This document shows positions 32,014-33,194 of a stretch of DNA of 64,000 nt, piece by piece. Origin of the DNA: Vineibacter terrae (GTDB lineage: Bacteria > Pseudomonadota > Alphaproteobacteria > Reyranellales > Reyranellaceae); assembly GCF_008039615.1 (NCBI RefSeq), contig NZ_VDUZ01000002.1, positions 124,001 through 188,000 of the forward strand. The letters are read 5' to 3'. Every line of letters starts with the position of its first letter. Position 1 is the first letter of the stretch. The notes under the pieces were generated by a model. That model saw only the letters and a program-made list of their open reading frames with translations, was not told where the DNA came from and made no database searches. Position numbers and translations under genes: made by a program.

Positions 32014-32040
32014 TGTCACAGGTGGCCGGCCTGAATCGTC
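32014..32040 (+). promoter_or_regulatory. ECF41-type sigma factor promoter
   Basis: TGTCACA at 32014-32020, 16 bases, then CGTC at 32037-32040. This is the published consensus for ECF41 promoters (TGTCACA-N16-CGTC). It lies 28 bases before the GTG of the 84-residue gene that precedes the ECF41 sigma gene itself. An exact match of both boxes with the right spacing, in front of an ECF41 locus, is unlikely by chance and indicates autoregulation. Confidence 0.8.
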
Positions 32041-32068
32041 TGGCGGTCAGAGGATCTGGAGACCTGCC

Positions 32069-32323
32069 GTGACCACGATCGACCGGCCCGCCGCGCCGCC
32101 CATGCCGCCCCCGCCTGGGCGCCGGGTCGCGCCCTGCCTCCTGCCAGCCCTGCCCGGGCTCAATGCACCTGCCATGCTGGCGGCGGGTCTGCTGTGGTAT
32201 GCCCATATGCCTGTCGTCGTGGTGACGGGGCCGTACGATGCGCATTTCGTGGCCGGTATGGGCATCGCCCTTACGGCGGCGATGCTCGGCCTGCCGGCGG
32301 CAATGGAGGTCGCCGATGCCTGA
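32069..32323 (+). CDS. Small putative membrane protein upstream of ECF41 sigma factor
   Basis: 84 residues from a GTG with GGAGA a few bases upstream. The N-terminus is Pro/Arg-rich (RPAAPPMPPPPGRRVAP); two hydrophobic stretches follow (MLAAGLLWYAHMPVVVVTG and FVAGMGIALTAAMLGLPAAM) with PYDAH between them. Its last eight bases overlap the start of the sigma gene (ATGCCTGA), a sign of translational coupling. The matching ECF41 promoter lies just upstream. I do not recognise a family. ECF41 sigma factors usually sit beside a carboxymuconolactone decarboxylase, oxidoreductase or epimerase gene; this protein occupies that place. Confidence 0.65.
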   Translation: MTTIDRPAAPPMPPPPGRRVAPCLLPALPGLNAPAMLAAGLLWYAHMPVVVVTGPYDAHFVAGMGIALTAAMLGLPAAMEVADA

Positions 32324-33194
32324 TCTCGCCGCTGCTGACGAATCGGCCGCCACATTCGAGGCCGAACGGCCGCGCCTGCGGGCACTGGCTTACCGCATGC
32401 TGGGCACGCTCGGTGATGCCGAGGATGCTGTGCAGGACACCTACCTGCGCTGGCACCGGACCGACCGCAGCACCGTGCGCACGCCGCAAGCATGGCTGGT
32501 CTCGGCCTGCACCCGCATCTGCATCGACCGCTTGCGTCGTGTCCGCACGGAACGGGCCGCCTATATCGGGCCGTGGCTGCCCGAGCCGATGATCGTCGAG
32601 ACCCAGGACTCGCCGGCGCTCGACGACACGCTGTCGCTGGCCTTCCTGGTCGTGCTGGAGCGCCTCAGCCCGTCGGAACGCGCTGCCTGGCTGCTGCACG
32701 AGGCGTTCGAGCACGATTACACCGAGATCGCCCGCGCGCTCGACAAGAGCGAAGCCGCCTGCCGGCAGCTGGTGTCGCGGGCGCGGCAGCACCTGAAGGA
32801 GGCGCGGCCGCGCTTCGCGCCCGACCGCGCCGCAGCCGACGGCCTGGCCGGGCGCTTCCTGCAGGCTTGCGTCGCCCATGACCGCGCAGCGCTGATGGAC
32901 CTGCTGGCCTTCAACGCCGAGGCCTGGACCGATGGCGGCGGCAAGGTGCGGTCGGCGCTCAACGTCATCGTCGGCGCCGACCGCGTCATGCGCTTCATCC
33001 TCGGTATCATGCGCAAGCAGCCAGCCGATCTTCAGCTCCGGCCTGTCCGCATCAACGGCATGCCAGGCCTGGTTGGCTATGTGCACGGCACGCCGCGCCA
33101 CACCTTCTCGCTTGACATCGTCGATGGCCGCGTCGCCGGCGTCTACATCGTGCGCAACCCCGACAAGCTGCGGCACCTGCCGCCGATGGCGTGA
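32316..33194 (+). CDS. ECF41-family RNA polymerase sigma factor (SigJ-like)
   Basis: 292 residues from the ATG at 32316. Region 2 (LRALAYRMLGTLGDAEDAVQDTYLRW) and region 4 (LSPSERAAWLLHEAFEHDYTEIARAL) are joined by a linker carrying GPWLPEP at 86-92. A fused C-terminal SnoaL-like domain has DGGGK at 206-210 and NPDKL at 281-285. These three motifs define group ECF41, whose C-terminal domain tunes its own activity instead of a separate anti-sigma factor. It would drive the TGTCACA-N16-CGTC promoter 300 bases upstream, and thereby itself. The inducing signal is unknown. Confidence 0.93.
   Translation: MPDLAAADESAATFEAERPRLRALAYRMLGTLGDAEDAVQDTYLRWHRTDRSTVRTPQAWLVSACTRICIDRLRRVRTERAAYIGPWLPEPMIVETQDSPALDDTLSLAFLVVLERLSPSERAAWLLHEAFEHDYTEIARALDKSEAACRQLVSRARQHLKEARPRFAPDRAAADGLAGRFLQACVAHDRAALMDLLAFNAEAWTDGGGKVRSALNVIVGADRVMRFILGIMRKQPADLQLRPVRINGMPGLVGYVHGTPRHTFSLDIVDGRVAGVYIVRNPDKLRHLPPMA

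Follow-up and report, generated by a model that had tools for sequence, protein, structure and literature searches.

Deletion in place of a membrane-anchored partner gene as the probable origin of an orphan ECF41 sigma factor with a conserved remote candidate target

In a stretch of 64,000 nucleotides from Vineibacter terrae (the window in the following) we find an ECF41 sigma factor gene which has very probably lost its COE partner gene (for a CMD, oxidoreductase or epimerase protein) by a deletion in place, and whose product would now act mainly on its own gene and on an oxidoreductase gene located far away. The small membrane protein encoded between promoter and sigma gene is most likely the remnant of this deletion and not a new sensor. 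The evidence comes from four species and consists of the synteny of the locus, the deletion itself, the loss of invariant residues and the conservation of the promoters at both genes. The genome of the window (G000), a draft assembly of 135 contigs, was compared with three congeners, namely G001, G002 (Reyranella sp. CPCC 100927, NZ_VOHA01000001.1, same genus as the genome of the window) and G003.

The sigma gene is located on the plus strand at 32316-33194 and encodes a protein of 292 amino acids with sigma2, a linker carrying the WLPEP motif, sigma4 and a SnoaL-like C-terminal extension. Sigma2 and sigma4 followed by such an extension, at least some 100 residues long, are characteristic for the ECF41 class. 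The best NCBIfam match is TIGR02957/SigX4, which covers the full length with an E-value of 4.5e-98 (327.9 bits) and lies above the curated cut-off, and among the Pfam profiles Sigma70_r2 (3e-12), Sigma70_r4_2 (2.7e-11) and, weakly, SnoaL_2 (0.053) match. The WLPEP motif, which has been named for ECF41 (PMC3426412), also belongs to the class features and is found in the sigma2-sigma4 linker at residues 87-91 (32574-32588); the motifs DGGGK and NPDKL are both present as well. The initial annotation had assigned the protein to ECF41 because of these hallmarks, an assignment borne out by the motifs and the NCBIfam profile alike. The locus has no more than a remnant of the COE gene that belongs to the class, which is not decisive for ECF41 membership because about one third of the known ECF41 loci have no such gene. 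The sigma gene is kept in all four congeneric genomes, with a dN/dS of about 0.16 in comparison to G002.

Upstream of the operon an ECF41-type promoter, TGTCACAGGTGGCCGGCCTGAATCGTC, is located at 32014-32040 on the plus strand, consisting of the -35 element TGTCACA (32014-32020), a spacer of 16 nucleotides and the -10 element CGTC (32037-32040). This corresponds to the class motif TGTCACA-(16+/-1)-CGTC in front of the sigma operon. It is the only exact match to TGTCACA-N16-CGTC in the 64-kb window, where 0.11 matches are expected by chance, so that the exact promoter reported earlier is indeed present. At the syntenic position the motif is exact in G002 and G003 and has one mismatch in G001. 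Judged by its sequence and position this is an ECF41 promoter, which the sigma factor would presumably use itself.

Between promoter and sigma gene a frame of 84 codons (32069-32323, plus strand) starts with GTG at 32069, preceded by a Shine-Dalgarno-like GGAG (32058-32061, plus strand) within the arrangement GGAGACC-GCC-GTG that is conserved in G002. The encoded protein has two hydrophobic stretches (residues about 24-55 and about 57-82), in agreement with the two likely membrane helices proposed before. Also the claimed overlap of eight bases exists: the frame ends at 32323 and the sigma gene starts with ATG at 32316, both sharing the 8 nt ATGCCTGA. The open length of 84 codons alone proves nothing, because in this G+C-rich DNA longer ORFs in other frames (132, 148 and 244 aa) overlap the same stretch. 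That the frame is derived from coding sequence is supported by homology. In Pfam and NCBIfam no family was found for the 84-residue protein, and no relative turned up when 84,980 species genomes were scanned with a tight peptide pattern. A search of whole genomes revealed one strong relative, in G002, with 52% identity over 64 residues (E 2.8e-13), while the weak matches are mostly chance frames. With P0001 the identity is 48% over residues 12-84 (E 5e-12) and 63% over a core of 43 residues.

The order of genes in G002 is the same as in the window: a divergent argG, the promoter, a gene for a protein of 331 residues, the ECF41 sigma gene and a methyltransferase gene, the sigma factor being orthologous and 80% identical to that of the window. 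The partner protein of G002 (331 residues, or 326 from the conserved GTG) begins with a hydrophobic domain, for which the structure model shows four helices, followed by a CMD/AhpD-like domain with a CxxC motif (DCGEC). Pfam detects CMD with 2.3e-4, at a score of 21.6 slightly under the gathering threshold of 23. With a profile built from four such CMD-like domains, the putative antioxidant-defence protein PDB 2gmy is found at 4.6e-4, and further entries of the CMD family at weaker values. In the model the CMD core reaches a pLDDT of about 90 and is the only usable part, the membrane half being low at about 40-60. Foldseek gives plausible matches of this core to the AhpD/CMD structures 2gmy, 3lvy and 2prr with probabilities of 0.92-0.99, at E-values of 0.45-1.3 and in all cases above 0.001. 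Despite these weak E-values and the sub-gathering Pfam score, we assign to the protein the CMD/AhpD fold with CxxC known for the class and regard it as a usual ECF41 COE partner with a membrane anchor.

Aligned to this gene, the 84-codon frame turns out to be composed of the first about 80 residues of the N-terminal part of the fusion, joined in frame to the last about 5 codons (EVADA-stop), and about 725 nt are missing in comparison to G002. The start region, the first about 80 residues, the end codons and the overlap all align with G002, which means that the stub continues the reading frame of the lost gene. The ancestral operon would have consisted of the promoter, a membrane-anchored CMD-like protein and the sigma factor, from which an in-frame internal deletion of this size would have taken the entire CMD domain together with the second half of the membrane domain. 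From promoter start to sigma start the distance amounts to 1027 nt for G002 and to 302 nt for the window, and in G003 promoter and sigma gene are 72 nt apart. In G003 a remnant of 15 codons ending with EVSDA-stop is left, so that the retained ends (EVADA-stop in the window, KVSDG-stop in G002, EVSDA-stop in G003) show the same 8-nt overlap with the sigma gene in all three genomes. G001 has lost the partner entirely together with the overlap and has a non-coding leader between the one-mismatch promoter and the sigma gene that it keeps. The Shine-Dalgarno sequence GGAGG of the sigma gene (32305-32309, plus strand) lies within the retained C-terminal codons; in the window it reads GGAGGT, at the same place in G003 GAGGTG and in G002 AAGGTG. 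These last codons have probably survived because they contain this ribosome-binding site and the overlapping stop and start. A paralogous partner elsewhere in G000 was considered as an explanation of the loss and rejected, since a second copy of the CMD partner was found neither in G000 nor in G001 or G003. The local membrane-bound CMD protein seems to have been dispensable in the genus.

The four-helix domain (4TM) of the partner belongs to a family which matches no named family in Pfam or NCBIfam, and no name for it was found in the literature searched, a search that did not extend to the re-classification of 2021 (PMC7826278). Among 289 alphaproteobacterial genomes, 21 besides that of the window contain a match, and in total 23 relatives of the domain were found outside the genome of the window. 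In thirteen of these 23 cases a CMD gene comes directly next and an ECF41 gene after it, always in this order, and seven of the 13 operons have the exact ECF41 promoter upstream. From its gene order, 4TM-CMD-ECF41 is to be regarded as a recurring operon of Alphaproteobacteria. Both domains are fused in front of ECF41 in the MAG RI_591, as in G002, and are encoded by separate genes in G046 and G041. Wecke et al. (PMC3426412) had already pointed out hypothetical genes which carry the promoter or lie between the COE gene and the sigma gene. The initial annotation had raised the question whether homologues of the 84-residue protein are always found beside ECF41 genes: 13 of the 23 are, and these are full-length and accompanied by a CMD gene, never a stub.

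The family shows the pattern H-F-V-x-D-I followed by H-x3-H, with H68, D72, H108 and H112 (P0001 numbering) being invariant; these residues could serve as metal or heme ligands. In G146 a 4TM gene with the exact ECF41 promoter is located on C16, CMD and ECF41 genes being located on C3, and in G263 the exact promoter, 4TM and CMD on C4 lie apart from the ECF41 gene on C2. Both would represent further cases of remote targets. For a membrane family without a name, its invariant His and Asp residues and its regular membership in ECF41 regulons of Alphaproteobacteria may offer a handle on the signal.

In an alignment with 24 full-length relatives, D72 is present in 24 of 24 and is replaced by G in the stub, and G58, present in 23 of 24, is replaced by V. 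H108 and H112 (24 of 24) lie in the deleted part, so that from the four invariant positions only H68 is kept. The stub also lacks helices 3-4 and the CMD/AhpD domain, and it contains no cysteine pair. Because residues invariant in the family are broken, a conserved sensor function of the stub is unlikely.

This bears on the reading given to the small protein in the initial annotation. Its statement that the locus has no intact COE gene stands, but its suggestion that the small protein is an alternative partner replacing COE does not, as the protein is the remnant of the COE gene itself. The proposed new type of sensor or effector is contradicted by the syntenic position in G002, where the membrane-anchored CMD fusion, of which the stub is a piece, is intact. 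One could still suppose that the 84-residue protein works in the membrane as a miniature sensor or effector and has taken the place of the COE partner. It is in frame, has a good ribosome-binding site and two hydrophobic helices, and its start region is conserved with G002; moreover, the core of 43 codons shows a dN/dS of about 0.22 in comparison to G002 and hence no neutral evolution, a value which can not settle the function of the stub because most of the divergence may predate the deletion. However, it is a fragment of a larger protein, has other residues in place of an invariant D and a G, and lacks the CMD domain as well as two of the helices and two invariant histidines, which makes it a very improbable candidate for such a role. 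In addition, no other stub was found, the tight search of 84,980 genomes revealed nothing that is related to the stub itself, and G001 and G003 keep sigma gene and promoter without such a protein. An assembly error in the genome of the window as the reason for the missing partner might be suspected in a draft of 135 contigs, but we consider this next to negligible: the substitutions of the stub at invariant sites are not expected from a collapsed assembly, two other congeners miss the partner too, and no leftover CMD fragment is found elsewhere in G000.

A different question is why start, stop, ribosome-binding site and reading frame of the stub are all still intact. This is a point against a mere remnant, the chance of keeping the frame being one in three. 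Besides chance, selection on the product or translational coupling could explain the intact frame. Were the stub translated only as a leader, coupling ribosomes to the start of the sigma gene, its amino acid sequence would be irrelevant. The 8-nt overlap kept in G000, G002 and G003, even with the 15-codon remnant of the latter, is in favour of this, as is the ribosome-binding site of the sigma gene within the retained codons. On the other hand the sigma gene persists in G001, where both the overlap and the coding leader are gone, and since this gene has its own Shine-Dalgarno sequence, coupling may not be needed. We therefore hold the coupling leader to be conceivable but rather doubtful; it is compatible with, and not opposed to, the explanation as a deletion remnant. 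It is improbable that the shortened protein is still produced and has a role, be it that of a minimal membrane modulator with two helices, acting on the sigma factor, or that of an obligatory coupling leader; if true, it would mean that an enzyme partner has been reduced to a regulatory peptide.

Concerning the sigma factor left behind by the deletion, RNA polymerase carrying it would read the TGTCACA-N16-CGTC promoter, and the sigma factor would thus drive its own transcription through the stub. A remote candidate target is encoded on contig C16 of the same genome (143018-144256), far from the sigma gene, by an oxidoreductase gene (Pyr_redox_2, 5e-37). An exact ECF41 promoter at C16:144289-144315 starts 59 nt before its start codon, and in each of the four genomes, G000 to G003, the exact promoter is found at a distance of 55-60 nt upstream of the start codon of the orthologous gene. 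All four genomes agree in every one of the 11 promoter bases (100% identity), in contrast to 15-35% identity in the 40 nt upstream and 12-44% in the spacer. A random promoter match within 300 bp has a probability of about 3e-4 per gene per genome, and therefore chance agreement in the three further genomes is negligible, even when it is allowed for that G000 has four exact matches genome-wide, which is near the chance number. Other matches in G000, one in a pyrB-like (aspartate carbamoyltransferase-like) frame and one near a GntR-like gene, were rejected as targets: they are not conserved at the orthologues and fit chance. For the oxidoreductase gene the position of the promoter implies a 5' leader of about 22-27 nt, in agreement with the mapped leaders of ECF41 targets, which measure 22/23 nt (PMC3426412).

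At E<=1e-60 the oxidoreductase is found in exactly the four searched genomes which have this sigma factor and in none of 33 others, and its 42%-identical paralogues in G000 and G002 are without the promoter. We infer that the oxidoreductase gene is a conserved remote target of a sigma factor that is an orphan at its own locus, and that the latter activates it in trans. A point against the window sigma factor acting alone there is that G000 has a second ECF41 gene (on C85) and G002 further ones, which might share the oxidoreductase promoter. G003 has a single ECF41 gene, of the window type, which argues for this type of sigma factor at the remote promoter. Promoter use, autoregulation, remote activation and a stub without function are all inferred from the DNA sequences of these genomes. 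The activity of the sigma factor may be set by its SnoaL-like extension, which would either hold it in check or enable it; in other ECF41 proteins the C-terminal extension controls activity (PMC3426412, PMC8999054).

Known COE-ECF operons are RSP_0606-ecf41 of Rhodobacter sphaeroides (PMC3426412) and SMb20029-rpoE9 of Sinorhizobium meliloti (PMC6180224). The intact locus of G002 resembles them in promoter motif and spacing, in the order of COE gene first and sigma gene second, and in the CxxC-containing CMD partner; unlike in these operons, a four-helix domain without a name anchors the partner in the membrane, and an in-frame deletion has destroyed this partner in the window. Orphans make up 34% of 373 ECF41 sigma factors (Wecke et al. 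2012, PMC3426412), and like them the window has a sigma gene with an ECF41 promoter upstream and no intact COE gene adjoining. Wecke et al. found local targets only, in the two species studied (PMC3426412). In contrast to their orphans, a comparison of four congeners makes the loss of the partner visible here, and an oxidoreductase gene could be proposed as a conserved remote target. Pyr_redox_2 is listed among the oxidoreductase domains of COE genes (PMC3426412), so that the remote gene is of the same domain type as these partners, differing in being encoded far from the sigma gene.

The genus may thus show how an orphan ECF41 can originate, by stepwise loss of the local partner while sigma gene and promoter are kept. 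For the partnerless ECF41 sigma factors, about one third of those known, the comparison of four species yields, as a new result, a concrete conserved candidate for a remote target. The second ECF41 gene of G000 (C85:16500-21261) has an ordinary CMD partner of 156 aa upstream and is without an exact TGTCACA-N16-CGTC promoter. A second ECF41 gene of G002, on C1 near 390743-390821, is an orphan as well: 78 nt upstream of its matched start it has the exact promoter, and no partner gene lies in between.
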